Source of the DNA: Phorcus lineatus
Taxonomy: Eukaryota; Mollusca; Gastropoda; Trochida; Trochidae
Direction: 5' to 3'
NCBI GenBank assembly: GCA_921293015.1
Contig: OV121084.1
Span: 46,969,864-47,033,863, forward strand
DNA length: 64,000 nt
The position numbers were made by a program, and so were the translations under genes. This document shows, in pieces, positions 17,601 to 64,000 of this stretch. The notes under the pieces were generated by a model. That model was given only the letters and a program-made list of their open reading frames with translations, was not told the DNA's origin and did not search any database. The number at the start of each line of letters is the position of its first letter. Positions within the stretch are counted from its first letter, which is position 1.

Positions 17601-20600
17601 AAATTTTGTGACACAAATATAGTGAATACATTCCATAAAATCCCCATGAAAATCTAAACAAATATCACACGATACTCAAACAAATTTAAATCACTTATGA
17701 AAATTAACTTTTGAAGCTGCTCTGTGGTGCACATTGATTACAGTGTTGTAATTTTGCCCAAACAAGTTAGTTAATAGATTATGACGCTTTTGAAGACAAA
17801 GCACAGAACACTTAACTCAAAGTTGACCTATCAGAGCATTATGCTAAAGGCCATGGGGATACCAAACAATATTTGCTAAAGTTTGTTATATAAGATGTAT
17901 AACTCTTTTCCTCTTGATCTATTTTGTCTGACCTGATCACACACATTCTCACCTGTGTAGGAATACAGTTGGCAAGCACAGTGTCGGCTCCGAGCTGTAG
18001 AGTGTACACAGGCTCAAAGGAAGGAACTTCTCTGATGGAGAGAGTCAGGTTACCATTGTTTGGCACCGACATAAGGACCAGCTTCATTCCTCTCACACTG
18101 GGGCGTGATAAAAAGTTTGAGATGAGTAATGACAATAAATAAATAAAGAAATCATAGTGAACAGAAGAAATCTTTCATTGAGTGTAAGGGTTGATACTGT
18201 TAAATTGTGTGAAGTGTCACTTTGGATTGGACATTATAAAATACTGTATCCTATTCACTTAATAAATTGTACCTATTTTTAGTGTTTCATTTAGTAGAGT
18301 TTATTTTTGAGGAAATAATCCTTTGTTTTGATTTTAGTTTGTTGCATTCTAGAATAAAACTGAAAATGTACTGAAAAAAAGAGTTCAATGCAATAACAGA
18401 TACTGTACCAAAATTTAGGTTTATTATTTCACCCTTTTCAGGAGAGACATGACCTAAGGGAGGCAACTCACCTATGAGAGCGGTAGTCAGATGTATCGAG
18501 GAGTTGGAAGCTTGACACAGGGAAATCAGTGAATTCTCTCAAGAGCAGTAGATTCTTGGCACACCATAAAGATATGTTGTTCTAAAAATTATAAATCAAA
18601 TATGTTCAAGAGTTAAGAAGAGAACAAAACTATACTATAATAGTTTTCGGTTTGGAAATAAGCAAGAACTGACTGAGTTAGCTCATTTTTCTACTCATCA
18701 AAGTTAAGGTCAAATTTAAAGTTAACTCTCACTCTTCAAATGGAATGTCAATAGCTGTAATCCAGGGGCAGTAACTCTCAACATTGAACCAACTTTAAAT
18801 ATGCTGATCGCTCACCGATACCCAAGACACATTCAAAATTCAAGAAAAAACTTCAGGAAGAGCAATTTTTTAGACAAATAGATAACATCTAGCATTGACT
18901 CTGTAGCTCAATTATAGCATAAATATTTTGAGGGGTATGGGTGGGGCTGGGGCTTTGGCGACCCAATATACAAGGCGGAATGGATAAAGTAAAACAAATG
19001 ATGAATGGAGTACAGCCCTTGCCATGATAAGCACATTTAGCTTGTTAGCTTTGGGTAAAATCTTACCTCGAAAAATTTATTAAGCAGTAACATCAAACAA
19101 ATATTTACATTTGAATCTTTCATAATGAGATGTCTTCCGTTGGCGGACAATTTTCCCATCACAACTGATGTATCTACAACAAAACATAATGTTGAAAAAA
19201 TTAAATCATTTATCATTGTAGCCTCCATCAAAATTTAAACCCTAGATTGATAGATGACATATCAAATATTTTCATATACATATATTTATTTTCATATGTA
19301 TATCTATTCATTAAATATATTCCCACAATAAAATTGCCAGTGAAAAATGTACAAACTTACTTTTTTTTTCAGAACAATTGGAATCTTTAGATGCCAGACA
19401 TGAGAGTATGATTTGTGATAACGAAAACCAAAGGTTTCTTACCTTCTTCAATGAGTTCTCCAACATTCTCTATTACCAGCCCATTATCCAACCACACCCA
19501 CCATGCAACCGTATTTTCTCCCTCTCCCTGAAGAGAAATATATCATCGTAAACAGAAGCTGAGTTTGCAGTGATTATAGATAACCAAAGTTCAAATGAAG
19601 TGTAACTTGCACAAGGTGACATTTATATGTGTTGATGCAATTCATGTAGTGACAGAGTATGTTTCCTAAAATTCATAAGTGCAAAAATGTCATATGAACT
19701 GATTCAGATACCCAAATTTTGTAATTACACCCCTAAATGCTTAATATCTTCTTTTTTTTCAAAGAAAAGCCTTCCACTTGGTTAGGAGCAAATATTCTCT
19801 GTCTAGTGTAGGCAGATTAACTGATAATTGGAAGTGATTGAATACCGTCAACCCATATTCAACTTTATATCTGATGTACATACATTTCAAAATTTAATCA
19901 GACTCATTGGTGCAGGCATCAACAATACATTGTGCGGTTCTCAATTAGAAATCACCATTTTTAACAATTATATTGGCACTATACTCAACAGATAAATATT
20001 ACAATAGTAGTATTTGCCACAAATTGGTAATTCTGAAATAATTAAAAACTATTGATAAAGTTTGATATATTTTACTATGTCTGTCACTACAATGGCCTAA
20101 TCAAAGACCTCTTCTACAAAATAAAATCCTTAATGTTGCTAAACAATAAATTCCAACTTTTCAAGCCTCTACAAACCATGAGATCGAAATAAATTATTAT
20201 TAAGAAATTAGATAAGAGTATTAAACAGTGAACGCACCAGTGAGTAGACACCCTGTGGGGTGGTGATGATGTCATTAGTGCTGATGGTGTGATAGTCGGA
20301 AGTCTGTACGTTCACAAACTGCATCTTCTCCATCAGTTTAGAACCGATGTTTTCCAAATCTGCAAACAATTCTTACAGTATTTAGGTGATCATCCATTAA
20401 CACTTATGGCAAAATTGAGTTAAACATCAAAGCAGTTACATTGATTTTTTGGAGTGCTTCTATATGAAATGAAAATGAATGAAATAACACAATTCAAGAA
20501 TAATGAGCTAGTTTTTTTTAGTGTCTTTACAATTTTAGAGTCGGTCTCAAGTTCCCCAAGCATATATAGTGAAAGAAGGATAACTCTAGCATTTTGAGGT

Positions 20601-31129: not shown

Positions 31130-34100
31130 GTGAGTCCACTTGTCAAGGCTTTCCACTTCTCTAAGCAGCTTTAGATGTTTCATACCAAACAGTTCAAAAT
31201 GTGCTTTAACCTTTTGCTTCAATATCCTCCCAGGATATGTTGTTGAAGTACATAAACTTCATTGTTTGTTACCTTCACATTGATACTTTAGAAGCTATTT
31301 GTCTCACAAGTTTCCAAAATTATTGATGAGATACAAATGTTTTTTGATGTTAAACAATAATGGCAATTATTTGAGATGAATCTCCTGTCCTCACACAAAA
31401 ACATTATGACTACTTCAGTCATGACTATCTCGTTCAGAATTACAAGCTAGTCAGGAATTTGCATGATTTTGCACTTTTGACTCACCACAAGAGATCTAAA
31501 ATTTTATAAGTTAATTAATAAGTTAAGTTAATAATTATTCCCCATCTACGATATAAATCATTAACCTCAAACGTTACATTGCTAAAGTTCCTTTACCAAA
31601 AGGTAAAAGCACAAGTACGCTCCCTCTTAACTAGTCCACCACTTGATAAATAGACGAGGCACTGTATTGTATGTCAAATTAATGTTCTAGAAGTTTTTGT
31701 CTGTAGTTTAAGATAATAATACTGACGATGATTGGGGCGGGATAGCGCAGTGGTTAGCGCGTTCGGCTTCGGATCAAGAGGTCCGTGGTTTGAATCCCGC
31801 CGGGGGCTCGGCAACTTTGTCTGCAGTAGAGAACTGTTCTACACGCAGTAAGGTTTGGGTGCAATGCTACACTGAATTTCAGCGCAGTACCACCCATGGT
31901 TCACTAGTTCCAGCCGATGCTCGCAGGTTTCATCGCAATGCATAGCCACAATGGTGTTGTGGGCTTTCTCCTTGCAATAATACTAGCAGCCGCGATATAA
32001 GTGAAATAATCTTGAAAGCGGCGTTAAACCCCTTATCACCTCACCTCACCTGATGATGATATAACAAGCGATGCTATTGCAGTGATGTTAGAGTCAGCGG
32101 CAGATAACATTCTACAGCAGGACTTCCTGAAGGCAATCAAGCAGGGAGTGAAAGAGACTCAGTCCATCATCAGACAGATCAATGCTCTCCGCACGCAGAT
32201 TGGGGTTGAGAAGAGAGAGTTTCAGCGAGGTGTTTCCGTATCGGAGTCCATACGGGACCAGGTCCGTAGGTATGATCATCTTTTTGACTTCCCTGTTTCT
32301 AGTTCCACTTGGTTCTTGTGTTCATACTCCATCATTGATCAATATCAAACTAATTTGACTTTTTATTTTCAGCCTTGCTGTGACCAGATTGAAAGATATA
32401 TTTTACAATGATTCTCATGACAAGGTTAGATTTGTTTTTATAAAATTTCCAACAAAATTCAAGGCCTTAAAATGATCTTATCATTCACTTTTTTATCATT
32501 ATTGATAAGATAATATCCTTGCAGTGCATTTTTATAAATGATAAAACTATCAGTTCTCCAAAATGCCATCTACATATGGTTAACAAAAAGTTTTTAAAAG
32601 TTGTTATTAGGATGTGAATATGTCCATGCTCCCTGCAGTATTGCATTTAAAAACGAGGTAATATCTGAGGATGATTTTTCTATAACAAATATCTATTTCC
32701 AGATATCCAGAGATGTTGCAGTGCAAGCTGTTCATGAAGATATACTGACTAGTTTGAAAAGTGAGATTTTCTATCTTAACACACAATCTTATTGATTAAT
32801 TAGTGCAGAACTAATTCAGCAACCATCCGTAGAACTTACAAGTAATTAACAAAAGGAGAGTAACTATTCTTTTTTTTCTTGTTAGAAATTCTTGTTTTGA
32901 AAAAAGAGCAATCAGTCATATTGTATCACCATTATTCATTTCATGTTTCATTATTTTATTAATTTGATATATTTCATTATTATCAACATTAATCATGATA
33001 TTTATTTTGGAATAAAATTAATATAATGTATGCAATTATTGATGACAATAATCTGTTTTGGTTCTAAACATAGAGTTCCAGTTATGACTAGTTCATGTTT
33101 TCAGGTGATGATCCAGATCTTGATGCGTCCCAGATATCAGATGCTTTCAACTTCGTAACCAAAGAAACTTTCAGAAACTTGATATTAGAGGAAAACCGAA
33201 GGTAAGTTATTTTTTTCATTACATACGAAAATGTTGCTGTATTATAAAGTTTAAGATTAAAAAACTAACATCCTATGAATATATGAATAAAGATTTTACC
33301 ACGTGTGTCTCTGTAGTTACACCACCAAGTGTGCAATGATTAGAGTTTATCATTATGCTCTGGCATTTTAGAAATATGTTTTTCTGATTCCGCTTACTAC
33401 AGTGAATCTTTTTTCAGGTGTGATGGTCGAGGTTTGACTGACCTGAGAGACATTTCATGTCAGGTCGACCTGTTCAAACCTCTCCATGGGTCGGCAATTT
33501 TTCAGAGAGGTCAAACACAGGTAATACTTTCAACATCAGAATTCAGTTTAAGTGTATCAAAATGTCAAACCGGCTAACAAGTTTCACCTCCATATAATCA
33601 TCTACATTGTGTTTGAGCCTTTCTAAATGCATTGAATACCAGCCTTTAACATTATTTCAGAGATATTCTAGGAGGAGGGTATAGAGTTCATATCACCTCA
33701 GTTTGTCAAAAAAACAAATGAAAGGATCTTACCATTTAATACTGATGTCACTTTAATTAACATATTTAATCTGTTTTAGGTCTTGTGCACAGTTACATTT
33801 GACAGTCTAGAGGCAGCCTTCAAATCAAATCCTGTCTCCGCCATTATGGGGTAAGTATTATACGTGAAGACATTTTGTATCAAAATTGTCACATTTTGAA
33901 AAGTTCTATTCATCCTTTATTTTAAATCGTATGTGATTCAGTGAAGCGGTCAATCTCCATTCAAGAGTTTATGTTCCAATGAATTGCTACCATCTTGGCT
34001 TGCTAAGTTTAATCCCTCCTTTAGACCTTTCTTGCCATTAGTACTTTACACATATTTAATCTGTTTAAAACTGATATACTTCCTCTCTTCAGGCCAGCAT

Positions 34101-37100
34101 TTAGGCTGTTGACTCAATTTTCATACAGTAGAGTTTAGTTTGAAGATTTATCTGACTAACTGCTGTTGGAATATCATGTAACATTGAAATTATGTAAGAT
34201 GTAAGCTGGGATGTTTTCACCTAAACTGAATTAGCAAATTAAGTGCATTAGCAATTATTGAATTTTCATAGGTTAATATTAACTCTCATTATCATTAAAG
34301 TCATTATTATTATTTTCAGAGGTTTCAAAGAGAAGAATTTCATGCTGCATTATGAGGTAAGAGCTAAAGGTCCAAATTAAATATCCAAAGATTTGCTCAA
34401 GTTGTTTATTTGACATTTATTAAACCTTAGATTAGAACACTAAAATATAATTACATTCTTCACTCCTAGAAAACAAATACAAATGTTTTAATCATGGCAG
34501 TATCATTTTTCGGCCACCTGTTTAAATTTAACTCTTCGAAATAGTTTATCAAAAGTTTATTTGTTCTAGTTTCCACCTTACGCTACCAATGAAACTGGCC
34601 GACCTGGATCTATAGGACGCAGAGAACTAGGGCATGGTGAGATGATTGAATATTTTTAGCTCATCAGGTCTGAAAGACTGATGGGCTTATGGCATGGCAA
34701 GGCGTCCGGCGTCCGTCCATCCGTCCATCCATCCGTCCATCCGTAAACTTTTCACTTTTTCGACTTCTTCTCCAGAACCAATGACTCTAGAGAGCTGAAA
34801 TTTTATGTGCATACTCCTTGGCAAATGGGGATTCTAAATTGTAGATTTTGTGACCCCATGACCCCAAATGAGGTCACAGGGGTCAAAACATGAAAAAACC
34901 TATTTTCATCTTCTTCTCCAGTTCCAAAAGGTCCAGAGAGCTGAAAAGTTGTGTGTAGACTCCTTGGGCACTGGAGATTCTAAATTGTAGGTTTGGTGAC
35001 CCCATGACCCCAAATGGGGTCACAGGGGTCAAAACCTGAAAAACCTAATTTCATCTTCTTCTCCAGTTCCAAAAGGTCTAGAGAGCTGAAAAGGTGTGTG
35101 TAGACTCCTTGGCCAACGGGGATTCTAAATTGTAGGTTTGGTGACCCCATGACCCCACATGGGGTCACAGGGGTCAAAACCTTAAAAACCTAATTTCATC
35201 TTCTTCTCCAGTTCCAAAAGGTCTAGAGAGCTGAAAAGGTGTGTGTAGACTCCTTGGCCAACGGTAGGGGTGAAACGGTACGGCTATGCCACGGTTCGGT
35301 GCGTATTGCGGTACGGAGCTCTCGGTTCGGTAATTTTCGGTTCGGTCCATCTCTATTTCAAAACCATTCATCAACAATAAATATAATAGAGATCTGAGGT
35401 ATGAAATGCACAAAAACTTGAATTGTGGAGGAAGTCTTCAAAAATATTAAAATATCTGACTAGAATGCACTCAAAAAGAGAGCTAGTTGTAGTCCTTAAC
35501 AGTGAACAGAACACTCAAAGAACTTGTAAATAAGTTGTAACTTGTAAACTTGTCAAAATATTTATTTGAATTTATTTTAGTGAGTCAATTACACTTTGAT
35601 TATTTGATATTTTCAAGTCTTTAGCTGAAGTTTTACTCTTTTAAAATTATTTAGAATTCAATAAAACCATTGGAGCTTGTGATTTTTGCAAATTAAAATT
35701 TTGTAACTTATTTTCAAAATCTAATACTTTATTTAGTTTTATTACTTTATAATAATCAATCAGTGTTCATTGACACATCAAATATTCACTGGTCACTAAT
35801 AAAGCAATGCAGCTCTAAAATCGATCGACCACAATTGGATTTCATTGTCAATGAGTTCGAAGAAAAGTACTTTCGTTTTGACTAAATTCCAAGATAAAAT
35901 AGCTCGTTTAAGAAATGTCATTTTGTTCTGATGTTTGTGACATATACATTTCCATTTCCATAATTCCATTATTAAAGCCGGTCATATAAAGATATATGAG
36001 TCATTCTCAAAAAAGGGGTAAATGCTTGTCCTGAGGGCATATCTTTTTTTTAAAAAATTTGGGGTCAATTTTCTTAATATCATAGTATACACTGGGATAG
36101 ATTCTACGTTTGCTGTGTGAATAAAAAAAAAATACTTAGTTAATTTCGGTACTTACAAGCTATTTTACCACCCAAAAACACCCATTTATGACTGTCCCAG
36201 GTCGACCCCCTCAGCAAAGTCACCCCCTCCAGAGCCAGAAAACGCGTCATTTAAAAAAAATATATAAATGCAATTGAAGTATGAATAGCTTAAATAAGCA
36301 TTGACATTCTTATAATTGCCATTATGATAACATATATTTATTAAATATGCAATTTTATACCTGTCCCTCAGAAAAGTGTCCTTCATGTAACAACCACATA
36401 AAATACCAAAATACTATCTGACCACAAAAAAAAAATCTTATCTTCTTCCTGTCCTGCTCATTGAGAGCATCCTTTTTATGCTGGTGCCATGTGATGCTAG
36501 CTGCTTGTGAATCTCAGTGTTCTTAAAAATCCTGATTCAAGGTAAGAAATTGTTGAGTATCTTTTAGTACCATCCTTTATGTAACGGCCATTTATCAACC
36601 TTATTGTTTGTTTTCATAAATGAGCATTTTTTGTGAAGTGACTTCTGTGATCATGATGACCAACATATGACCTTTTTTGATACTGATGCCATCATTAATG
36701 CATTAGATTTTTTTGGGGGTGAATGCCGTCCTTCATGTAACAGTCCTTTGTGTAACAGGACTATTTGTTACACGAAGGACAGATTTTGTTACATGAATGA
36801 CTTTCGATACTCAAAACAACTATTTTATTCATCAGGACAGACCTGAGAAAATTGGTCTTCTAAATAATGTTAATGCCATATTGTTCTAAAGTTTGTTAAT
36901 GTTCACATTTTGATTAAATTGTCATTTTGAAGTTTGGAATATCCTTCGTGTAACACCTAAACGTCCTTTATGTAACATCTGCATAGGATTTCGCATGAGT
37001 ATGTTACCATATTTTCATATCTTCATCAGGACAGACCTGAACAAATAAGTTTACTAAATATTTCTGATGTCCTATTGTTTTTAAAGATTTTTATTGTTCA

Positions 37101-40100
37101 CATATTGCTACAATTGACATTTTGGCGTTCAAATGTCTTCCGTGTAACACCTTGATGTCCTTTATGTAACATCTCTTCAGAATTTTGCAAAGAATAAAGC
37201 ATAATATCCACATATCCTTACCAGAACAAAATTATTTGAATGCCTTTTCTTTGACTATTGACTATCATAAGATGCAATTTTTTACTTTTTCGGACTGTTA
37301 TACCAAATCTTTATTTTCGGCTCTCAAGTCCTTTATGTAACATTTCCTGTCCCTAATGTAACAGATATGTTCTTCGTGTAACACATATATATTATTCATG
37401 AAAAAATATCTTAGAAATATATATTTTTATCTGCCAAACTTCTATTCCCTTGCTTATGTAAGATGTTTAGAGTTATAGTCTTTATATTGTCACAATAATG
37501 TTTTAGTATCGAAAAATAACTATCTTCAATGCTGTTCTGAGCGTAAAATTTGATAATGCTACAATTAATGTGTCTATTTAAACATCTCTTTCAGCTAACT
37601 TATCAATGTAGCCTATTTAACTACTAGAAAACAACTTAATCAAAATGTTAACTCAAAAGAAGTTAAATTCTACAAGATGTGTTCTTTTTTTAATGATAAT
37701 GTATTGTTACACGAAGGACATAAAGTAGCGGGCAAATTAATTAATTGATTATATATCTTTAAATAATGATTAGTTATAGGTTGCAGTATTTTGTTTTTAT
37801 GTTTTCCAGTTATTGTTGTTTTGATAATAAAAGTCAAATTACAACTTAATACACTCTGTTTTTGTGATTTTTTCAACATCTGATTCCTGCGTATTTTGAG
37901 AATGACTCATATATATCATGTTTTGACCCTGTAATGAAAGCCGACAGTAACAATCACCTCAGATATGATATAGGTCGCTGTTCCTTTGTGCACCCCTTTT
38001 AACGCAAGCTCCAAACACTGTGGGGTTGATATATATCATGCTCGGTCGATGCATGGAGCTTTGTAACCGGAAATTGAAGTTATTGGAGGGAGGTTATAGT
38101 AACAGCATGTAAACAATGAGAACTTGCGATTTCTCGACAGTTTATTAATTATTGTATCCTTTATGAAGATGAGTTGACAGCTTTTTCAAAAATTTAATTG
38201 TACAATTAAACAATTACACGCGACAGTTAGGCGCATAAGGCTGAAAACCCATGCAACATTTTTTTAGAAATCATGCGAGAATGTCGCGGTCGCGCCGTAA
38301 ATCTGAAACACTGCAGTAAGTTTGAATGGCGTTTGAACTTTGGTTGGATTAATTTATAATGACATTTAGCAGATAACGATGGGTTTGAGTTGACATTTTT
38401 TAGCTTTTTTGACAGCAATAAACAAGAGAACAGTGAGAAAAAATGAAATTTACAACAACCGTACGGTACGGTTTTTTCAAAGCAAATTTTCGGTGCACCG
38501 AACCGTAAAAAAATACCGCAATACGAATACACCGCGGTAAACCGTTTCACCCCTAGCCAACGGGGATTCTAAATTTTAGGTTTGGTGACCCCATGACCCC
38601 AAATGGGGTCACAGGGGTCAAAACCTTAAAATCCTACTTTCATCTTCTTCTCCAGTTCCAAAAGGTCTTGATAGCTTAATAGTTGTGTGTAGACTCCTTG
38701 GACAATGGGGATTCTGAATTGAAGGTTTGGTGACCCCTTGACCCCAAATGGGCAATGGGCCTTTTTTATTTGATTGTGAATAACTCGGACGTTGGGACAG
38801 GCTATCTTTCCTACACTGCCCATGACCCCATGATCTAAACCACAACACCTATTTCTATCAAAAGTCTGATGAGCTACAGAGCCCATGGCTCTATTTTTAT
38901 CCTTATTTAACTTACCTTAAATGTTGTCATTGCATTTTCTCCTGGTATCGTAGGCTTTATTCCTTCAGTAGTTGCCATAAGATCAGTGAAATAAACGTTT
39001 CAGGATTTTTTTTATTGATGTATCATTTGAAGTACAAATAGATAACCGTTTTATTTGGTAGCAATTCTGAATATGAATTCCAAGGCCTTTCACCAGTTCA
39101 TTTCACAGTCAAGTCTCACCATTTGACATTGTTTTGGTGCTTTCACCTTGAAAAAGTTTGTGTGAGAGAAATAAAATTTAAATTTTTCTATTTGCAAGAA
39201 CAGCCTTATTGATATGAGTAAAAAGTGAGGCTAACCTCCATATCTCCTTTTCTCCTTCTCTAACTTATTAGGGACATAAATTTGTAAATAATTAATTTCC
39301 GAGGATTTTAAACGACAATGTATGATCATGTTCAGGTGCTTTGGCTGAGAAAGGGTTGAGACCACTGATACCAAACAACTTCCCATTCACAATAAGATTG
39401 ACTTCCGAAGTGTTGGAATCAAATGGTAAGTTTGTAAAGTCTCTTTTTTCAAGATTTATTTTGATAGCACAAATGAAGGATGTAAGTTATGTGTATAAAT
39501 ACTTTTATTGCAATGAAAGTAATGTTTTTACAAATTTGTAAAACTGTTAAGTGGCAAGTATGCCCTTGAACAAATAATCTGTTTATATAGCACAAGATAC
39601 TAAATAAATCCAATTGCTGCCTTGCTTGCATGCTTCAGAATAGCCAATGACAATTTCCTTTCATGTAGGAGTGAATAGATTGTAGTTTACTCTAAGGAGA
39701 GAGGCAAACTCTTTCAACCGATGAAGACTTTTATAACATTGAAGTACGATTAATATTTATGTAGGTCTTCCAAGTCTTTTGGGTTTAACAAATTTCATCC
39801 AAGTGGAGTAAGACTTACACTAGGTTGAGTATAAAGAGAAGGTATGACAGCCAGACAGTAAGTTACTCCCTCCCACCCAGGTTCCTCCTCCATGGCGTCC
39901 GTGTGTGGAGGCAGTCTTGCCTTGATGGATGCCGGTGTGCCGGTCAGTGACGCGGCTGCGGGAGTAGCTGTCGGGCTGGTCAGTCGGTCAGACCCTGATA
40001 ACTCAGACGAGATCCTGGAGTACAAGCTTCTTACAGATCTACTGGTAGAGAGCTATTGAAACTCATAATTATGTCTTTGAAGGGCATTTAGAAGTGTAAT

Positions 40101-43100
40101 AATGATAAATGTTTTAATTTCTGAATAATATGTCTATAAGGTTTGTCTGTCAATTGATGGTTTTCTTGTTTTAACTTTAACTTGAAAGGTTTGATTTTGT
40201 TAAATATATAGAATGCAGGCTTTTTTGGCAATAACTTAATTTGATATGATAATTTGAAACATAAAAACATTTTTTCTTTCTACAAATTTATGATAATCTT
40301 TTAAATAGTTCTGAACTTCAAACATTACTATTAACATGTAAATGATTAAAATGTAAATTCATATATTGAGTGTTTTATTCTAGGGAATAGAAGATTACAT
40401 GGGAGACATGGATTTCAAACTTGCTGGAACCAAAAAGGGAATCACAGCTCTACAGGTAAAATACAAAATCTTTGTTGTTTCTAATGGACAATGTTTACTT
40501 TTTATGATCAGAACATCTCTGTAGAGGTAGACAGCTATTATCACTATGAAAAGGAACCAGACAATAGTTGGGGCATAATAAGGTCTACATAATCTACAAA
40601 TATGACCTGCTGAGACCAGTGACTCGCTACCATAAGGTCTCATAAGTCAGAGTAGATTTATGTGAGTCCCTCAGCAAATAAACAGATCGTACCACTAACA
40701 AAACATTGTGTCCTGGAGACCCCAACTTTAATTTTTTATGGGTCCTTTTCAAATTGTATTTGATACAGGACTGGTAAATTTATCAGTGGCCATTGGGTTT
40801 GGTTCTGGACATTTGATCCTAAAATAGTTCTTGCACCTTTATCTACGACCCAACTAAATCTCTCAGCAATATTGAACATATATTTTCATTATTTCTCATA
40901 TTTCTCTGGTTTATGAGTCATATGTTGTAATCAGAATTAAGTTCCTTTAGAGTTCCTAATCAAAATTTAATATTTATAAAAAAAAATTGTTACTAATGCC
41001 AAGCTTATGTTACAGGCAGACATCAAGTTACCTGGAATACCTCTGAAAGTAGTTATGGAGGCAGTGCAACAAGCAACAGGTGAAATACACAGTACACTTT
41101 TAAGGGGCAGAAGCACATTTTTTAAAAATCAGTTTGTCTCCAATGAAATTTAGTTTTCGTCAAATGTATTATCTTCAGAGGGAAACATCTCATTTCTCAA
41201 ACCTTGTTAGTCATGGCAGAATTGACTTAGTATCAAACAGAAACCACTGGCAGCTGTTTTTTGTGTGAACACCTTTTAATCATTTGAGATAGGAAAATGG
41301 ATTTGCACAGCACTGATCATGATACATTCCTTTTAGAAATACTTCTTTCGACGAAAATCTATTGTCTTGCAATGAATTGGTAACATATAGTTCAGTTCCG
41401 TTACGTCACTTTATTTATCTAAAAAATTGTGCTTCTGCCCCTTTATGTGAAGGGAAATATGATACAAAACAACTTTTATTGTCTCAAATCAACAAGTTTA
41501 AGACAGGCTTGTTATTATTTGGTATATATCCTGTGCAAAGTTGAACGGGGATCTATGTATTCAGTTTTGTCAGCTTGGTATTTGGTATATATTAGTGAAC
41601 ATGGCATTTTGTGTTAGGGTTATTTTTGTTTAATTTTGGTTACCTTCATTTTAAGTATGTTAGAGCTTTGAAACTTAAAGCTCTTTGTGTTCACTGAAGG
41701 TGAGATCTTTTACATGAATCATTCTTAGTCACTTAACATTAAGAACAAGGTTTCTACTGATTTTAGTGATAAATAGAATATAGAAAAATAGTAAAATCTT
41801 ATGCAACTCAATTTATAAATTCAAGATAATATTTGTTTTAGATGGCAAGAGTGAGATTTTGAAAATAATGCAAAACACAATTTCCAAGCCTAGAGATTCC
41901 CGGAAGGAGAATGGACCAGTTACAGGTAACGTTTTCCTGACAACTATAATATTATGAACACAGCAGTCATATATGTTCCATGTGTTCTATTTTCAAAATG
42001 GTTTTAACATGGGGACCCTTAAATTTATATATACCTTCAGGCTTGTTTAGATTATATCATTTGAATAAGATTTGTTCCAGCGTAGAGTTCATACTTGCCT
42101 CTCTGATTTTAGAGAAAGGTAGTCATCGGTTCTGCACGATGATTAGTATTTTGTTTTTACAAGAATGAGTTTCAAGAATACTCAAACAAATTACTGATTA
42201 ATATTTATTTATGTTAATCCTTCACAGAAAAGCTAGAGGTCCCCTCCTCGAGACGAGCCAGGTTCGTGGGTGTGGGCGGTCACAATCTACGCAGACTGAC
42301 CAGTCAGACAGGTGGGTTGTTAAGTCCATTAGCAGTCAGTGTCAGCTAAAACAGGTTTATTCATTCAAAAAGATTGCATTGCAATTGGTAAAAAAAAAAT
42401 TGTTTTAGTGAAATCTTAGTTACCTATAAAAAAATGTACTAGTGCACCTTGCTAAGTCACTTCCTTGATTAAAGTATGAATTCAGTTTTGTTGGTATGGG
42501 AGTTGTGAATTTTGTGTTCATGCTTGATAATGAATACCAAGATATATACTTATGAACAGGATGTTATGTTCAAGCAATTGTAAGAAATATACATGGCTCC
42601 TATTTCACATTTCAGGTGTGACAGTGACGACAGTAGACGAGAACACGTTTCAGGTGTTTGCTCCAAACAAAGAGGCAATGGATGAAGCTAAGGAATTGAT
42701 AGAAGAGCTTCTCAAGGAAGAGGTATGTGTGCTTGGTCAGGGCTGTAGACCAATATCACTTGGACCTTCACTGACTGAATAAGTTTCTTAATGTGTTAAA
42801 AGCAGTGCTTTAGACCAATATCACTTGGACCTTCGCTGAGTAAATTTGTAATAATGTGTTAAAATTATTAAATTCTTTATTTTCAAGCAAACTTACTCCT
42901 TTTCAGAGAGAACCAGAGCTAGAATTTGGTGCTATCTACACAGGGAAGATAATTGAAATCAAGTGAGTAACTCAACCTCAACCAATAAAATATTTTTCTT
43001 CTTCTTCTTCTTCTTCTTCTTCTTGTACTCTACAACTCTACAAGGTATATATAATGACTATATAGACCGAACTAATGCCTCAGATGCCTCAAAGATGACA

Positions 43101-49901: not shown

Positions 49902-51904
49902 CCGTATATTACCGTGTATAAGTCGAGTTTTTTATACCAGAAATTGTGGGGTCAAGGAGGGGGGTCGACTTATATATGAGGTAGAAGTTTCAGACAAAAA
50001 AAATCAGAGGTCGAGTGACGATCTGCCGGCCGAAGGAAACGAACAGACGAGATGCAAACCGGAAGCAACGATGTCAAAACGTTGTCAAAATAATGGAATA
50101 AAATTACTTTAATAATTATTACATACTTAACTGTTTGTTATATATTACCATTAATAGTTAAAAAATATTATAATCCATTGAAATAAATTTTTAATCGACA
50201 ATTTTATGGATGTACAGTAACGATTCAAACCGGAAGCCACGATGTCAACACGTTGTCAAAATAATGAAATTAAGTTACTTTAATAATTATTACATACTTT
50301 ACTGTTTGTTATATACTGCTATTAATAGTTAAAGCATATTAGAATCTATTGAAGTGCATTTCTAATCGACAATTTTATAAACATTCAGTAACGATGCAAA
50401 CCGGAAGCCACGATGTCAACACGTTGTCAAAATAATGAAATTAAGTTACTTTAATAATTATTACATACTTTACTGTTTGTTAGTACTATTTATAGCTAAA
50501 AAATATTATAACCTTATATATAATACATTTCTAATTGACAATTTTATAGACAGACCGTTACGATTCCAACTACGACATGCTTATCGATCAATATGGCGAG
50601 TGTTTCATAACAAGTCATATGACGTGGGCCAATGAGATTCTACGATCATTCATACACATAGGAACCGGTGAAACATGAGATTGAGCCTCCTGATATATAC
50701 GATGTTTTAACGTTTTGCCAAAACAAAAGTGTAATATTCAAATCTTTTTAAATCTTGGTAAACTAGTGTTATCTTTACAATTTTAATTTACATTCAGTAC
50801 ATATATTGACGAACACATCCGGTAATTATATCAGCTTTGATCTGCATTGTATCAAATTAACAGTACCGGTAATTGATTTGGAAATAGCGTTTGTCCTTAT
50901 TTACTAGGTAACAATTAAACAATTCACCGCAATTTCCGAGAAAAGCAGTGCGAGAGGTTACGACAATCATATACGGGCATTTTTATGTTAGCGCGATTTG
51001 TCACATGTTATACTGAAGTGTAGTCACATCGGAAATATTATCGGCACAAATTTTATCATGTACCCCTACCTCTTTAGTAGACGTATATTACCTCGCTCTC
51101 GTGAAAAAATCAATTACTGTTCTAGCTTTCTTTGAATTTGATGAAGACATTAGGTTTGTTTTTCACCGCGTAAAATACTCGGAATTTCACAACTCCGACT
51201 ATCAATTTCCAAGAAAAGCAGTGCGAGCATTACATACGGGCATTCTGAATTAGCCAATTAAATTTTTCCTTTTGTCTGAGGTCACTTACGGGTACGAGTT
51301 CTTGGTAATGTGCTATAAATAGTTACGGGAATTTCCAAATTTCGTTATGAAAACCGTAAGATTAAAATTGAGTTAGAAACCGAATGCTACGCACGATATG
51401 CATATAAATACGTGCATAATGTTTATTGCGCATGGTGTGGCCCAGTAGTTATCATTTTTTACGCCACATTTCATTATAGATGCATTATTTACTAATTACA
51501 CAAATACGCACTCTAGGTGCAACACTGCGCATGTACCGAGACGTAAATGACACTAAATTATTTTTTTTTTAAAAGAACAAACACCAGCACACACGTATGT
51601 ATTTTTTATTATTAATATTTATTATTAATATATTTATTACAACAATCTCTTATTAAACAAATGCTTACTGTATTGCAAAACACTGACGTATTACAACTCA
51701 CTTTGAAAATTACCGATACATCAACTTACCGTAACTAAATCTCTCAACTTGCCGCGTGTTTCATGTCGACCTGCCTCCGACCTGTCGACCTGCTATTAGG
51801 GGGGTCGACTTATAAATGAGGTATATGATTTTGACAGCAATTTGGGGGCCTGAGAAAGGGGGTCGACTTATACACAGGGTCGACTTATACACGGTAATAT
51901 ACGG
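49902..51904. mobile_element. 2.0-kb DNA element with long TIRs and TA target duplication
   Basis: The ends are inverted copies starting CCGTATATTACCGTGTATAA and running about 25 bp, flanked by TA on both sides (49900-49901 and 51905-51906). Subterminal GGGTCGACTTATA words lie at about 49962 on the left and at three sites between 51799 and 51893 on the right. The centre has three ~171-bp tandem units. No transposase frame is present. The TA duplication suggests a Tc1/mariner/pogo-like mobiliser, but the family is not settled. Confidence 0.8.
50055..50570. repeat. 171-bp tandem repeat, three copies
   Basis: The word CAAACCGGAAGC(C/A)ACGATGTC starts at 50055, 50226 and 50397, exactly 171 bp apart. 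A degenerate fourth start is near 50566. Units also share TTACTTTAATAATTATTACA. They lie inside the TA-flanked element. Confidence 0.9.
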
Positions 51905-53594: not shown

Positions 53595-53686
53595 TTACTT
53601 TTCATAATGCTGACAGTTACAATGAATTAAATCAAATACAAGAAATGATAGTAAATAATTAATACTATCATATTTATATAAAAATT

Positions 53687-54344
53687 ATCATCCATGAAAA
53701 CTATCAGGGTCTGGAAGTTCTGGTCACCAAAGATTTTGTCCATCAGTCGCATGAATGTTGCAAGTGCTCCAGTTAGTCCAAAAGGCATCCTAGTATATTC
53801 AAACAGTCCTCCAGTGCCAACCCGAAATGCTGTCTTCTCAATATCTTTCTCTGCAACTGGAATTTGGTGAAATCCATGTGCCAACTCCAGACTGCAGAAG
53901 AACCTTGCTCCTTTAAGTACATCAAGAGCTTCTTCAATCCGAGGTAGTGGATATGCATCCTTCAGAGTCTTGGCATTAATGGTTCTGTAGTCACAGCATG
54001 TCATCAGTTTCCCATTGCTCTTACGTACTAGCACAACAGGTGATGCATACGGACTTGATGATTCAGGTATGATACCGGACTCCAAACTTTTAGCAATGTA
54101 TTGCCAGACCTCATTTGAAAGCTGTGGTGGTATTCGGCTGTGAGGGGCTCTCACTGGATTCTCATCAGTTGTGACAAGTCTGTGTTCCACTGCGTCACAA
54201 AATTATACTTTCATAAAACAAGAAAATATTACAATTTCTTATTCATTGTTACAATACATTCTCTTCATCCTTCATCCGCCTTGCTTCATCTGTCTTGTCA
54301 GGACATCAGTTGAGGGTTGAACTTGTATCCCACTTCTGACACCA
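53687..54344 (-). pseudogene. Ty3/gypsy reverse transcriptase fragment A, with primer site
   Basis: The frame from 54190 carries standard Ty3/gypsy reverse transcriptase blocks: SGIIPESSSPYASPVVLVRK, CCDYRTINAKTLKDAYPLPR, MPFGLTGALATFMRLMDKI and the catalytic VFMDD. It ends abruptly at 53687, where unrelated AT-rich DNA begins, so the palm, connection, RNase H and integrase are missing. Upstream, 54327-54344 is a tRNA-Leu-type primer-binding site, and TGTACAAGAGGG from 54345 is the LTR end. It is about 95% alike to fragment B over the shared part by eye. Confidence 0.85.
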
Positions 54345-54375: not shown

Positions 54376-55998
54376 CTACAGAATACCGGATACCTTCCGC
54401 CATTTTTGTAAGCACGCGAGTTTATTTTAGAACTGCGCAAATCGTATGCGCAACTTACTTCCCTAGCAATCGCATTTCGACTTTCTGTACGACACAAACG
54501 CTTTCGATTACTCACCTATTTTGAAGTTTTTCCCTTGGATTTCAGCAAGTCTATCACTTTGTGTTATTCTAGGGTTAGTGTTAGCTTAAGACTAAGGGTT
54601 AGTTCCAACTCTTACCTACCTTTACAGAATAAAATCATCGGCACTATCATTCGCATCAGCCTCAGGGGTAGGTTGCAGTGCAGCGAGTGGGCGTCTCACA
54701 CAAACAATTTCATGATCTCGGTCATGTGGGTTATAAATGTCAGTTCTAAAAAAGCAATGAATTTGTCTCCTCTTTCACTCAGATATTTCCTTCTGACACA
54801 GAATTCCTCGAAATAAGATGAGTACAATAATTTTGTGGTTCCCGACCGAGGAAGAGATCTTTTCAATGCACCCCATGACGACTCGATAGTGTTAGTGTGT
54901 GCTCCTGTAGCGGGGTCCTTGAAGTTAATCGAGTGGTTAACTTTCACATGGTGAAAGTCTTCCTTACTGAGACAGTCATAGGCTTTCCAACAATCGCTTA
55001 TGATTGTGGTTCCAGGTTTGATGTGATTTTTTATTATTGGTATGAGAGTGTCCGAGTCACGCTTTTCAACACAAGTGAAAAAACATTCTTTTGATTCCCG
55101 ATCGATCCCCCCGAAAACCCACTGACCCTCAACTCTTTTCCCCCGATTAAACTTTCTTTTTCCAAATTTTGATTCGTCGATTTCGACAACCCTTCCCACC
55201 CCTCCTATCTTAGCACTGTCACCATCAACAACACACACACAAACCTCACGGCAAAAGTGGTACCAGTCCACGGAAGTGTTACAAGATGATATGTCAAGCT
55301 CCCGGCGCACAAAATCTTGGGAAAGCTTCCATACCCAGCGGTACGTGAGCAATAAAATCTTCCCACAGTCAAGTTTGCTATTTTCAAACCATGAATTGTG
55401 CCGAATGGAAAGTTTTTTACCACAGGATTTCTTGCTACATTTCCAGCAATAGTGATCTTTGCTGTAGCTTTTGTCTCTACACAAATAAAATTCACCAGTA
55501 CAGCATTTCCCACAGGTTTTCCCGTCCCAGTTTCCTAACAGTTCCTTGTTCCTTAAAAATCGGAATAATTCTTCTTCATCTTCTGATAACTTAAAGACGT
55601 CCCAAAAACGCATACCCGAACGCTGAAAATACTACGATTCCATAGTAAAGTGTCCAAATATGGCTGTTACTAGGCTATGACGTAAGCGAAAATTGACCAA
55701 TCACAGAGGACTTACCTGTCAGAATTTTCCCACGCTCATTCCTTCCAATTCCCATAATTCCGTAGCTCCGATTTTTGAAAGAAACATATCTTTTTTATTT
55801 GCGATAGCTTACCTTTGGCTCTAAAAATCATTGGTTAGTTTTACTAACCGGAAGTCAGCTCAAGGAAGCTGAATTTTATGTTTATTTTTTATTTCGGCGT
55901 TGCTTTATTTTTTCGAATTTTAATGCTCGTGCTTCTTATATATAGGAAATGCACATGCTACTAAACAATATGGCTGGTAGGTATCCGGTATTCTGTAG
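54376..55998 (-). mobile_element. Merlin-superfamily DNA transposon
   Basis: A 1,623-bp element with perfect 20-bp terminal inverted repeats CTACAGAATACCGGATACCT and one open transposase gene on the minus strand. The transposase is of the IS1595/ISXO2 (Merlin) DDE type. No 8-9-bp target duplication is found at the ends (flanks CGGAAAGA and GTGTATTA), unlike a normal Merlin insertion. Both flanks are gypsy-derived sequence. Confidence 0.85.
54696..55613 (-). CDS. Merlin transposase (ISXO2-like DDE), apparently intact
   Basis: 305 residues, one uninterrupted exon. The N-terminus (about 34-64) has CGKCCTG...C...CWKC...C, the zinc ribbon typical of IS1595-type transposases. The catalytic core follows: GGVGRVVEIDESKFGKRKFN with D146, GTTIISDCWKAYDCL with D207 and GAHTNTIESSWGALKRSLP with E244, giving a complete DDE triad. 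VEGQWVFGGIDRESKECFFT between them is also characteristic. The length fits a full Merlin transposase (about 290-320). The start at 55613 is the first ATG in frame and precedes FWDVFKLSEDEEE. It lies wholly inside perfect terminal inverted repeats, so the element could be recently active. It would bind its repeat ends, then cut and reinsert the element. Confidence 0.88.
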   Translation of the reverse strand: MRFWDVFKLSEDEEELFRFLRNKELLGNWDGKTCGKCCTGEFYLCRDKSYSKDHYCWKCSKKSCGKKLSIRHNSWFENSKLDCGKILLLTYRWVWKLSQDFVRRELDISSCNTSVDWYHFCREVCVCVVDGDSAKIGGVGRVVEIDESKFGKRKFNRGKRVEGQWVFGGIDRESKECFFTCVEKRDSDTLIPIIKNHIKPGTTIISDCWKAYDCLSKEDFHHVKVNHSINFKDPATGAHTNTIESSWGALKRSLPRSGTTKLLYSSYFEEFCVRRKYLSERGDKFIAFLELTFITHMTEIMKLFV

Positions 55999-56799: not shown

Positions 56800-58036
56800 C
56801 AGTAACCACATTTACTTGCCACTTTCACTGGCTGTTCTAGGCCTCAATTGATAGTGTCTGGGCCTTCCCTCGCATTCTTCTTTTTTCACCAAACACATTG
56901 GTCCTTTCCATAATGAAACCAGTCACTTGCGTCTTTTTTAATGTCCGATGTTGAAACATTCCCTCTAGTGTAAGGGTCTTCAGAAGCAAAGCCATATTCT
57001 GCTGATGAAACTAGTTGTCAAAATGTGTCTCTGCCTCATTCTACAAAATGTGGCTCGGAACAAGACAATTCCAGGATTTTCAGACAGAAACTTAAGATGC
57101 AAGTTGGCAAGATGGTCCGTGAGAATTCGTGTTTGGTTCTTAACACCATTAATGTCGGGTTTGGCATCGGCTTTACCTTGTTGAAGACTGCTGTTATCAT
57201 CCCTCTCAAAGAAGTTAAGAACTTGCTCTCTGCACTTCACCTGATTTTGTGATCGTTTCTGTTTAGGTATGGTGGTCCATTTCTTTCTTGTAACGGAGAG
57301 CTTATTCCGATTATCCTGTGCGGGCAGCTAACCAAGAAAAGCCTCGGTACTTCTTTATGATCTTTCCACATATCAAGCTGTGAAGAGCCCTTTCTTTATT
57401 CTTAGTTCTACAAACTTCAGTTTTTAGCTTGTTCAGTTTTGCTGAGAAGGGCGTTTCCAAGCAGCAACTGCCTTTTAACCTTATCTCCTTGTGTCTTGGA
57501 AATTCCAGCAAGCCTCAGATCTTGTTCTGTTCTAGTACGAGGTGAGTTTGAAGAAGATGATATTTTTTAACGCATTCGCTCACGCCATTTTTTAATGGTC
57601 TTGTACTTTCTAGCAAGGGAGAGATTTTTCATCTTCAATGAGAAAGTGTCTTTTGAGCTTTAGCCAGAGCAGGCCGGTGCGCTGTCTTGTTCCAGCCCGT
57701 CGCGATGTTTGAAAGTTCATTCTGACAACTATGGGATTCTGTTCATTGATCTGAGACACAATGTTATTGAGTATCCACTGGTGTCACTTGGAGAAAGGAC
57801 AGCTGCTTCTTGAACTGCTTGTAGAGCCTCTGCTTTCTTTCTGTTTCTAAACCGCTGTACTCTAAACCGCTGTACTCTAAACCTCTGTACTCTAAATATT
57901 TTATTCTTCTTTGTCTTTCTTTAGCAAGATATGCTTTACCATTCTTTTCTTTCTGTCTTTCCCTATATGCCTTCTGTATTTTGGTTAGAATTTTCCCAAT
58001 ACTATGAAAAAACAAAACAACCTTGAGATAAAGCAC
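56800..58036 (-). pseudogene. Decayed charged protein of a multi-copy 'RDDNS' family
   Basis: Right to left on the minus strand: KIQKAYRERQKEKNGKAYLA and KERQRRIKY, a linker, VRMNFQTSRRAGTRQRTGLL, LARKYKTIKKWRERM, RTRTEQDLRLAGISKTQGDK, KERALHSLICGKIIKKYRGF, then VLNFFERDDNSSLQQGKADA and RILTDHLANLHLKFLSENPG. The pieces lie in three frames with stops, so it is dead. The same block order recurs in uncharacterised, high-copy proteins of molluscs and cnidarians that I recall only as motifs. I cannot assign a function. A transposon-encoded DNA-binding protein is one possibility. Confidence 0.45.
57847..57897. repeat. In-frame minisatellite, three ~15-bp units
   Basis: CTAAACCGCTGTACT repeats three times with one variant. 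On the minus strand it adds (S/R)GLEY repeats into the charged RDDNS-family remnant. This is a local expansion not expected in the family. Confidence 0.8.
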
Positions 58037-59999: not shown

Positions 60000-61391
60000 T
60001 AAAAAAACTAACAACATTCCAATCTAAACTCTAGAACCTGATGGTCCGATACCTCTTTTCTCTTTATCATTTCCTTTAACTCTTTTTAGACTAAAAAGCC
60101 AATGTCCACTTTCTTGAAGCTGATCCATTCCTTCCTTTCTGTAACTTGCCATATTGAGTTGCAGCTACTGTATTTCTATTCATGAAACACTGCATGAGAC
60201 CCCGAACAGTGACACTCAGCTCATGGGAGTGGTTCATTGTCAGTAAATACAAAGCACTCTGTCCCAAGCAATATGTCTCAGTACTTATCCATTTGAGTGC
60301 AAGTAGTTCCAGTTTCATGCAGCTGTAGTTTTCCATATTCTCTTCATTAGGACGTAAGGAACGACTTAAGTAGACGAGTACCACTATACCTCGTTCCTGC
60401 TCCTGTGACAGCACAGCTCCTAGTCCTGCATTGCTTGCATCCACCTCCAAGATGTACGGTTTTGTGAAGTCAGGGAAACCTAGGATCGGGGCTGAAGTGA
60501 GCTTTCTCTTCAACTCCTCAAAGGCTCTATCGCATGACTCGTCCAATGATGACATACCAAGCAAGTCCAAGAAATCCTCGCAACTGTGTCTCTGTCTTTG
60601 GTGTCTCCCAATCTATCACTGCCTTTACCTTGTCTTTATCTTGTAGCAGTCCTTCCTCAGAAATCTAATGACCAATGCTTGAAGAATTGACATTTCTCAG
60701 GCCTGACTTTCAAGTTGTACAATGCTAGCCTTGTGAGAACCATGTCCAGTTGCTGGATGACTTCCTCCTCAGTGGCTCCAAAAACTAAGATATCATCGAT
60801 GAAAACTATCAGGGTTTGGAAGTTCTGGTCACCACAGATTTTGTCCATCAGTCGCATGAATGTTGCAAGTGCTCCAGTCAGTCCAAAAGGCATCCTAGTA
60901 TATTTATACAGTCCTCCAGTGCCAACCCAAAATGCTGTCTTCTCAATATCTTTCTCTGCCACTGGAATTTGGTGAAATCCATGTGCCAAGTCCAGACTGC
61001 AGAAGAACCTTGCTCCTTTAAGTACATCAAGAGCTTCTTCAATCGGAGGTGGTGGATATGCATCCTTCCGAGTCTGGCATTAATGGTTCTGTAGTCACAG
61101 CAAGTCATCAGTTTCCTATTGCTCTTGCTTACTAGCACAACAGGGTTTGCATACAGACTTGATGATTCATATATGATACCAGACTCCAAAATTTTAGCAA
61201 TGTATTGCCAGACCTCATTTGAAAGCTTTGGTGGTATTCGGCTGTGAGGGGCTCTCACTGGATTCTCATCAGTTGTGACAAGTCTGTGTTCCACTGCGTC
61301 ACAAAATTATACTTTCATAAAACAAGAAAATATTACAATTTCTTATTCATTGTTACAATACATTCTCTTCATCCTTCATCCTTCATCCGCC
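60000..61391 (-). pseudogene. Ty3/gypsy fragment B (reverse transcriptase and RNase H)
   Basis: Reverse transcriptase from 61294 matches fragment A block for block. A one-base loss near 61075 shifts its frame. It resumes as AHGFHQIPVAEKDIEKTAFW, with the catalytic FIDDILVFG in the second frame down to 60657. RNase H at 60570-60091 has DASNAGLGAVLSQEQERG and LRPNEENMENYSCMKLELLA, then fails after RSALYLLTMNH-like text. Integrase is absent. Gypsy homology stops on the right at 61391, inside the leader, so the primer site and LTR are missing. Not functional. Confidence 0.85.
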
Positions 61392-61871
61392 AGCGGCAAT
61401 TCCTCGCAGTCCTCTATAAAATATATTTTTCAGTTTGTGATATTGGTAGAAGCTTTGATTTTGATAGATGGAGTGCATTTTGACGATGTTTCTAAGATAT
61501 CGATCGAGTTCTTGACTCTCAATGTGGCCATCGCTTTGGCATGATGTACTTGAATCTTTAGTCTGTAGGCCAGACCCTGAAATAAGTAAGAAGCCTAAGC
61601 AAGTCTATAAAAGACTCAAGAGCTTAATTTCAGGGTCTGTGGAAATCCACCAGCTCACAGCCCATATTCTGGGCTGTGCCTTATCAGCTGTCATCAGTAC
61701 ATGAGGAGTGGGGGCAAGGAATGGCAGCGGCCTGTCACCTTAACCCCCACTGCATAGTTGTACCCCCCTTGACCTCATGATCCCCAACATGTGGTGTTAC
61801 ATTAAACCTAAACATTTGTGATACATTTTACACTTTATTTGATAGAATGTCCACTTCATCAGAAAACTTCA
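61392..61871. other. Spacer before the RecQ-like gene, with a short palindrome
   Basis: No gene is supported. CAGACCCTGAAATAAG (61568-61583) is mirrored by CTTAATTTCAGGGTCTG (to 61640), a hairpin with a ~40-nt loop. The helicase promoter, or a 5' exon, should lie here, but no TATA box or clear splice donor stands out. Confidence 0.5.
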
Positions 61872-64000
61872 ATGGACATAGACGATATCCTTAGTTTATC
61901 CTTAAAGAAGGTAAATTTGCAAACGATACGCCCCCATCAGGAGAAGGTGGTAAAGTCGTATTTGTGTGGAAAAGATGTACTCTTTTGTTCACCTACAGGC
62001 AGTGGAAAATCTTTAACCTTTGAACTATCTCCTATACTTTTTAAGGAATATGGTAAAACTAAAACTGCTACTGTAATTGTTGTTTCTCCCTTAGTGGCAC
62101 TAATGAAAAATCAAACAGAGAAATGTTTGTCTTTGGGACTTAAAGCAGTCTACTTAAGTGACATTGAGTGTAAGGAAAACCTCGATGACAGTCTTGTGTC
62201 AACGATTGAGAAACTGACTGTGGAAGATATTAGAGATGGTGAAGCAGATATCATATTCACCAGCCCTGAATCCATACTCGGAAAACATAGGAACCTGGTC
62301 GTGGATCTGGAAAAAGGACATCATCTCAAGGCAATCTTCATTGATGAAGCTCACTGCATTCCAAAATTGTAAGTAAATAAAGATAAAGATATTAATCAAA
62401 CTTTTCCACAACTTTATTACTAATGACAAAGAAAACTCATGGCAAAACATAGAACAATGAACATATCACAATCAACTTAAATTGTACACTTTTGTTGGAA
62501 AATATTTGATCAATATCAACATTTGTAATCTACTTGCTACTAAATAATCTACTATTATTTGGTGTCCCTGAATTGTATCCAAAAAAGAGAAGAAAATAAT
62601 TTTTAACAGACTATTCTGATTTACTCCTTTTGGATAACCATCATTTAGAAATACTTCAAGAATTTAGAAAACAAGGTGTTCTATGTTTAGAAATTTTCTT
62701 TAAAAATTGCTATATAAATAGTCCCATGACAGAGATTCTTAAATAAAGAAAATATGATTAAAATGTTAATTGAGATCTTCATAAAAATTGCCATCATTAC
62801 ATTCTACAACTATACCAGATCTATATTCAAAATACGTTCTCAATTTAAAAATATGTTAAATGACTATTTCTATGTGCTGGTCCTAACTAAACCTCGAGCC
62901 CTAAATTCTGCACAAGCCAACACTGACGAATCGCCAGTGGGAAAATAAAGTAATCATGCTAGTTTCGTGTGCACATTCAAAGTCAGTAGGCATAATCTTG
63001 CATAAAACAAACGGTGTTAAACTCCTAACACAACTTGAATTATCAGATCAGTTATAGGAATTGGAGCAGTAAGCGAAGCCGCTTTGCACAAATCATTGCT
63101 CGGAGTAGATGTTTACGATTTAAATTCAAAGACTGCTGTAATTACCAGTGACTTAAAGTTGAGATTTTCACGTACATATTTAGATTTTTTTTAATAACAC
63201 GATACGCATTATAATTTTTATGTATTGGGTAAATACACATTGCTAATTTTTGAGAAGCGTAAACGTAGATTTAAAGTGATTTTCATAACGCAGACAATTT
63301 AATTATCTCGTGTATTTTGACTTTTCTTCTGAGTAAAATAGGCTAATAGGCAGCTTATCTGGAGCTATGCATATTTCAGATATACCTCAATAAAGTATAA
63401 TTTACCCTGTGTATTCATTTAAGACGTTAAAGTATATTCTCATACGCTGCACACTTTATATTTCAGTTATTTTCAACAATTAATATTTCTTTTTTGTGAA
63501 CAGTTTTTTTTAAAAATCACTTAGTGACTCTGACTGACTCATCGTTTTGATTGTTTGATGTAGGTTTGTTTACAATAAATGATAAGCATTTTATTGCATA
63601 AATAGATGGCGAAGACAAGTGCATATGTCTTCATACGCCCTCAATCAGCCAATCCGAGCTAGAAATGCATGCTATATAACCTTTGATATCAATTATGATT
63701 CAATAACAAAATGTATTATTATTATTATTATAAGACATTAATTACACAGAATATGATGTACCATGTATCACCTTATCTCTACCACTTAGCTTTACTATCT
63801 CCAATTCAACATTCTAATAGAAACGATTTTTATCAAATATACAACAATCAAAAAGACATGCTAACTGTGTTATGAAACATTGTCAAGATGTACAATTTAC
63901 AGCTTATTCAATTAATCATTTTCAGTGGGATGTCAGATGGCAAGAATAAAGAAGCATTCCGTCCAGCATATGGCGAGCTTGGAGAACTACGCTCATTGAC
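61872..64000 (+). CDS. RecQ-like DExH ATP-dependent helicase, 5' part (exon 1 and start of exon 2)
   Basis: Exon 1 (61872-62368) gives about 165 residues with ordered superfamily 2 motifs: IRPHQ (motif 0, residues 19-23), SPTGSGKS (Walker A, 40-47), VVSPLVALMKNQ (Ia), IIFTSPES and FIDEAHCIP (Walker B, DEAH at 158-161). The donor GTAAGT at 62369 joins the acceptor at 63925. Exon 2 (63926 onward) continues FGMSDGKNKEAFRPAYGELG and ELRSL in frame, where RecQ proteins have the conserved FRP-Y--LG-LR block after motif II. The gene runs off the right edge. I chose M at 61872; an upstream in-frame ATG at 61818 adds a non-conserved hydrophobic leader. It resembles the multi-copy RecQ-like helicases of invertebrates more than a specific BLM/WRN/RECQL orthologue, and may be repeat-borne. 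Confidence 0.8.
62369..63925 (+). other. Intron 1 of the RecQ-like gene
   Basis: A 1.56-kb AT-rich intron with a GTAAGT donor and a TTTTCAG acceptor. It has an (ATT)n run near 63714-63732 and nothing else that can be recognised. Confidence 0.7.

Follow-up and report, generated by a model that had tools for sequence, protein, structure and literature searches.

A non-coding 1.9-kb segment with perfect inverted ends and an interior array of one short motif in the gastropod Phorcus lineatus

Location and boundaries of the element

The window analysed here is a 64,000-nucleotide stretch of the Phorcus lineatus genome (assembly GCA_921293015.1, contig OV121084.1, positions 46,969,864–47,033,863), in which a segment of 1.9 kb, bounded by perfect inverted repeats, holds 14 copies of one 14-bp motif in its interior. 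An earlier note, made from the sequence alone, had described this motif array between perfect inverted ends, and the observation is confirmed. The segment is found once in the window and is nested in a hAT-like element, which itself splits an array of 145-bp tandem repeats; the ends and the nesting are established directly. The features concerned are the following.

34757–35264, plus strand: left part of the 145-bp tandem array, split by the hAT-like element
35265–38555, no strand: hAT-like element enclosing the 1.9-kb element, with ends TAGGGGTGAAACGGT and the 8-bp duplication GCCAACGG at 35257–35264 and 38556–38563
35997–37909, no strand: 1.9-kb non-coding element, a probable non-autonomous terminal-inverted-repeat DNA transposon, with perfect inverted ends, the motif array and no Pfam domain above cut-off in nine pieces
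35997–36012, plus strand: left terminal inverted repeat (TIR) TGAGTCATTCTCAAAA, 21 bp with the ATATA flank
37894–37909, minus strand: right TIR, 16 bp, mate of the left repeat
38556–38752, plus strand: right part of the 145-bp tandem array, in the same orientation as the left part

The segment is 1913 bp long and its 16-bp ends, which start TGAGTC, pair without mismatch, as had been claimed; with the palindromic ATATA flank included they extend to 21 bp, whereas over 200 shuffles of the hAT-like region, 3.3 kb in length, perfect inverted repeats reached no more than 17 bp (mean 12). The best local alignment between 400 bp of each element end consisted of the 16-bp ends alone, with no long inverted ends. 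The TATA flanks are present as described, though the target flank fits a TA and a TATA duplication alike, its AT-palindromic sequence making the two inseparable. The absence of a coding frame was also borne out: the longest stop-free piece has 78 aa, and for the nine longest of 39 pieces of at least 28 aa no Pfam match exceeded the curated cut-off, and three of these pieces gave weak matches that fell short of it (E 0.026–0.05). Taken together, these features indicate that the segment is probably a non-autonomous DNA transposon with terminal inverted repeats.

Members of the hAT superfamily have an 8-bp target site duplication and short YAGGGGTG-type inverted ends. The enclosing element, of 3291 bp, carries the 15-bp ends TAGGGGTGAAACGGT without mismatch at both ends of 35265–38555 and is flanked on either side by GCCAACGG, where it interrupts the 145-bp array; because duplication and end type agree with those of the superfamily we call it a hAT-like insertion. 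Its longest piece outside the 1.9-kb segment measures 108 aa, and it is therefore at most a non-autonomous member; the only piece scanned there against Pfam (38230–38553) gave no match above cut-off and one weak one (E 0.025). The ratio of observed to expected CpG is 0.49 in the segment (22 CpG in 1913 bp) and 0.50 across the window; for the remainder of the hAT-like element it is 1.18 (47 in 1378 bp), or 0.91 when the 150-bp ends of that element are left out. These counts are small, and the contrast fits a difference in history between the segment and the element around it. Had the segment instead belonged to the hAT-like element from the start, its ends would be an internal inverted repeat, an origin with which the single known copy and a duplication inseparable from the AT palindrome agree and which is compatible with any of the functions considered below for the array. 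We regard this origin as quite improbable, given inverted ends longer than any in the 200 shuffles and the lower CpG ratio inside the segment.

Sequences resembling the hAT-like end TAGGGGTGAAACGGT occur at 11945 (plus strand), 20778, 14188 and 21951 (all minus strand), with 1, 2, 3 and 3 mismatches, respectively. The 145-bp tandem repeat is rich in GACCCC/GGGGTC words, and outside its array TAGCTCATCAG stands in inverted orientation at 34657–34667 and 38866–38876, a pair that perhaps forms the two termini of an outer tandem-repeat element. Coding pieces resembling PNPT1 lie on the plus strand at 32028–32411, 39862–40059 and 42534–42782; since the 1.9-kb segment is located between two of these, it is probably intronic.

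The motif array

The array and the internal repeat that contains part of it comprise the following.

36379–36392, plus strand: motif copy 1, single
36573–36586, plus strand: motif copy 2, single, with one mismatch
36728–36801, no strand: palindrome of motif copies 3 and 4 (plus) and 5 and 6 (minus), within 36722–36808, which folds stably
36828–36980, plus strand: first copy of an internal repeat of about 194 bp, 78.6% identical to 37022–37174
36942–36977, plus strand: motif pair, copies 7 and 8, 22-bp step
37022–37174, plus strand: second copy of the internal repeat of about 194 bp
37136–37171, plus strand: copies 9 and 10 of the motif, paired at a 22-bp step and duplicating the pair at 36942
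37329–37383, plus strand: motif triplet, copies 11–13, steps of 21 and 20 bp
37705–37718, minus strand: motif copy 14, single, inverted

When up to two mismatches are allowed, the motif has 17 matches in the window against a shuffle mean of 2.76, and 14 of them lie inside 35997–37909 (nine exact, three with one mismatch and two with two). At up to 0, 1 and 2 mismatches the element therefore holds 9, 12 and 14 copies; in 300 dinucleotide shuffles the means were 0, 0.007 and 0.12 and the largest counts 0, 1 and 2, so that the enrichment, a check proposed at the outset, is far beyond chance. Eleven copies are on the plus strand and three (36766, 36787 and 37705) on the minus strand, which reproduces the earlier count exactly. 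The rest of the hAT-like element has no match to the 16-mer form of the motif with up to four mismatches.

The two degenerate positions of the motif, Y and R, read CG in five copies, which thus retain a CpG, TA in four, CA in three, and TG and AA in one each. Changes from the reference TCCTTCGTGTAACA are seen in 14 of the 28 CpG letters, as opposed to 6 of the 168 at the remaining positions (Fisher p = 1.1e-9). Because they concentrate at the CpG, and CpG mutation is well established, the degeneracy probably represents chiefly the decay series of one CpG, the original being TCCTTCGTGTAACA; the ancestral site of about 15 bp would then probably be GTCCTTCGTGTAACA, which supplies a concrete sequence for the ancestor. 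TGTAAC is invariant in all 14 copies and is preceded by G in 12, while no other flanking column within 14 bp on either side is common to more than 11. At the 12 non-CpG positions nine copies have no mismatch, four have one and one has two, and for matches with three to five such mismatches the element is at window background. The divergence of the sites is thus low: the 6 differing letters among 168 compare with about 11.9% expected per branch, a figure obtained from the non-motif part of the duplicated block (binomial p = 1.4e-4). Constraint on the motif, judged from these comparisons, is likely but not proven.

Internal duplication and cluster spacing

The repeat of about 194 bp is 78.6% identical across 154 aligned positions at a lag of 194–195, and the motif pair at 37136 was therefore copied from that at 36942, or the reverse; by this alignment, duplication accounts for part of the motif copy number. 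The inverted pair 36766/36787 also resembles the direct pair 37329/37350, with 76% complementarity over 42 nt. The flanks of the copies at 36379, 36573 and 37705 have no clear kinship to those of other copies (z 3.4 for the top pair, from 60 shuffles each, some of the 90-nt flanks containing neighbouring motif copies that inflate z).

It could be argued from this that the motif has no function and is simply what survives best of an old internal array of tandem units of about 194 bp. The clear duplication is in keeping with such an origin, as is the position of the other clusters near the same period of about 194 bp, and whole-unit comparisons with the motif included gave z values of 4.2, 3.9 and 5.0 for three unit pairs beyond the clear duplicate, from which an older tandem origin is possible. 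Three single copies without clearly related flanks, three of 14 copies inverted and non-CpG positions better kept than the duplicate (p = 1.4e-4, but p = 0.07 inside the duplicate) argue the other way, and we consider the remnant explanation rather unlikely. Satellite DNA would be a regular head-to-tail array of like units, whereas the element has one clear unit pair and inverted motif copies; Tandem Repeats Finder returned two 15-bp doublets only.

Adjacent motif starts are 194, 156, 15, 22, 21, 155, 22, 172, 22, 171, 21, 20 and 335 bp apart. Steps within clusters span 15–22 bp, in accordance with the pairing first noted, and measure 20–22 bp in six of seven cases and 15 bp in one. The midpoints of the seven clusters are separated by 194, 185, 195, 194, 202.5 and 355.5 bp, and their periodicity has a resultant length of 0.97 at 191 bp, a value reached by none of 3000 random placements (the period scan moved in steps of 2 bp for the random sets and 1 bp for the real set). 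As three clusters are or may be duplicates, only the other four were tested against the phase of this directly repeated trio, which they share with p = 0.0099 at 194 bp; the value depends on the assumed period, ranging from 0.003 to 0.07 over six periods of 190–198 bp.

This spacing invites the idea of a transposon family with sites arrayed through its interior at nucleosome spacing, with pairs about two helical turns apart, a four-copy palindrome and clusters every 190 bp or so, a layout closer to that of an origin or insulator than to a transposon end. We think the existence of such a family improbable, and the same low probability attaches to its functional corollary, that selection keeps the sites and that a transposase or a captured host protein assembles along the entire element.

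The palindrome

The stretch 36722–36808 has a predicted fold energy of −39.5 kcal/mol on the plus strand (z −8.8) and −34.9 on the minus strand (z −7.1), and none of 200 shuffles was as stable on either strand. Given this strong fold on both strands, and the position of the element between plus-strand PNPT1-like coding pieces, the four-copy palindrome might give rise to a hairpin RNA or a microRNA-like precursor, with the other motif copies as pairing partners. Such a role appears very improbable: the shared word is just 14–16 nt, two other motif clusters form folds no more stable than those of their shuffles (z −0.44 and −0.21), and an Rfam scan of the 1.9-kb element yielded nothing at gathering score, the sole match of a permissive scan (mir-4504) scoring 20.5 bits where 104 is the gathering score.

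Searches for relatives and other features of the window

A search of a collection of viral contigs located 23 stretches with the 16-bp end and 55 with the 16-bp motif, and the resulting 78 loci were compared with the nested elements by BLAST. The best 15 rows of this comparison were matches of 18–32 bp, the best being 21 bp long (E 0.005). With up to one mismatch, 53 of the 78 loci held one motif, 23 none and two held two. These loci were treated as chance and rejected as relatives. Direct motif pairs were found neither in viral contigs nor in genome contigs, and inverted motif pairs and the 145-bp repeat had no match in viral contigs; since the collections are viral and prokaryotic, these misses say little about an animal element. 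A word search of the literature for the element ends and the motif matched unrelated subjects only, and one for the 145-bp repeat, the hAT-like ends and the outer ends gave no match. A coding origin of the motif, which reads Cys-Pro-Ser-Cys-Asn in some pieces, was also rejected, because steps of 22, 20 and 194 bp break the frame.

Elsewhere in the window, KNTC1-like pieces lie on the minus strand at 17839–18174 (with a Pfam match and none among solved structures) and at 9696–9998 (with a match among solved structures and none in Pfam). Between the KNTC1-like and the first PNPT1-like pieces, Rfam matches a tRNA at 31736–31802 (plus strand, 33 bits) that ARAGORN did not call. Two 592-bp stretches (53686–54277 and 60791–61381) are 95.6% identical, and a frame over the first matches Pfam RVT_1. 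A 311-aa open frame at 54696–55631 (minus strand) has an ISXO2-like (IS1595) DDE transposase domain (E 3.9e-19) and is presumably Merlin-like, and an open frame at 61812–62372 (plus strand) with a DEAD/DEAH helicase domain (E 2.2e-17) is possibly RecQ-like. Tandem repeats are present at 50051–50564 (171 bp, 3.0 copies) and at 57846–57896 (15 bp, 3.4 copies), the latter in a minus-strand open frame as a peptide repeat of the LEYSG kind.

Discussion

The most likely function of the array would be to provide binding sites for a DNA-binding protein, for which a transposase ranks ahead of a host factor. We infer protein binding because the site is sharply bounded, occurs in both orientations in partly unrelated flanks and recurs at steps of about two helical turns, and a transposase is put first because Galileo has transposase sites inside internal repeats (PMC3688188). 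Our working hypothesis for the element as a whole, which we hold tentatively and with somewhat less than even confidence, is that it is a mobile non-autonomous element whose interior array binds a sequence-specific protein, above all its own transposase. As a short-ended transposon it would be moved by a transposase encoded elsewhere, and it may have been inserted into the hAT-like element or have travelled together with it. Its interior would be an array of one site of about 15 bp, arranged as singles, pairs, a triplet and a four-copy palindrome in clusters about 190 bp apart, and these might bind the transposase as secondary sites, raising recognition or helping the ends to pair.

Several observations weigh against this hypothesis. 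The left end and the first motif site are 382 bp apart, and another 191 bp separate the last site from the right end, distances that disfavour ordinary subterminal sites, and the motif is absent from the inverted ends themselves. As one copy of the element is known, its mobility is something we infer. Pfam searches of 10 of the 48 window frames of at least 90 aa recognized no transposase for it, the sole transposase domain among the 10 being of IS1595 type. The test of non-CpG conservation fails if a divergence of 6% is assumed (p = 0.12), and within the duplicated block the motif shows no significantly higher conservation than the remainder (26 of 28 against 109 of 143). Nor is the 20–22-bp spacing independent evidence, because the pairs are partly copies of each other; the clusters and their period were defined post hoc, after the data had been seen, and the whole-unit similarities that allow an older tandem origin count here too.

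The array might instead be bound by a protein of the host, such as one of zinc-finger or architectural type, in which case the element would carry an insulator or enhancer-like module. Sites that are interior rather than subterminal, in both orientations and in many copies, with near-nucleosomal spacing between clusters, would suit such a module, and the gypsy element, as described, offers a precedent of layout in its 12 sites within 340 bp (PMC2374998). The sites here are, however, spread across 1.3 kb, and we consider a host protein a doubtful candidate.

If selection keeps the sites, recognition by a transposase or a host factor would be spread through the body of the element, and such distributed recognition, if true, would bear on how non-autonomous elements persist in being mobile and on the carriage of regulatory-site clusters into genes. 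The mobile-like character of the segment, the dense internal array suggestive of binding sites and the structured palindrome stand from the earlier interpretation, to which the enclosing hAT-like element, the duplication of about 194 bp, the CpG origin of Y and R and the hairpin are now added.

Members of the Tc1/mariner superfamily have a TA target duplication and ends that mostly begin CAGT or CACT, while those of the present element begin TGAGTC. Miniature inverted-repeat transposable elements in the strict sense are below about 600–800 bp, against 1913 bp here, and the long repeat-bearing inverted ends of Foldback/Galileo-type elements are absent. Judged from one copy, the element thus conforms fully to no superfamily.

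Two systems outside DNA transposons are alike in the arrangement of their sites. The dyad symmetry of Epstein–Barr virus (EBV) oriP has two sets of tandem sites 21 bp apart (PMC3798644), an analogy of layout alone, the 1.9-kb element having neither a viral gene nor evidence of replication. In the Drosophila gypsy insulator 12 degenerate short sites for one protein, Su(Hw), are carried on a mobile element (PMC2374998); these occupy 340 bp of a retrotransposon's 5' untranslated region and have a different consensus, and the cluster is likened to our array in layout only.

That no family has such a layout, as the earlier note supposed, is not supported, since elements with internal repeats are already known from bivalves and Drosophila (PMC5139131, PMC4079207), Galileo among them (PMC3688188). 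Galileo, a Drosophila element of the P superfamily, has been shown to have several sites for its transposase inside the tandem repeats of its TIRs, two of these sites falling within internal direct repeats (PMC3688188). There, however, the sites are contained in long inverted ends, beginning about 70 bp inward, whereas here the ends are 16–21 bp and the sites interior. Tetris, a foldback-like element of Drosophila virilis, is likewise apparently non-autonomous, with AT-rich internal tandem repeats of about 220 bp and no conserved open frames (PMC4079207); its repeats lie inside TIRs of up to 1,735 bp, its target site duplication is 8–10 bp, and an array of a short motif is not among the features described there. 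The DTC84/pearl elements of bivalves are modular and non-autonomous, with internal satellite-like repeats, and in DTC84 a conserved palindrome lies near the repeat junctions (PMC5139131). Compared with them by description only, the Phorcus element differs in that its 15-bp site is more widespread than its unit of about 194 bp.

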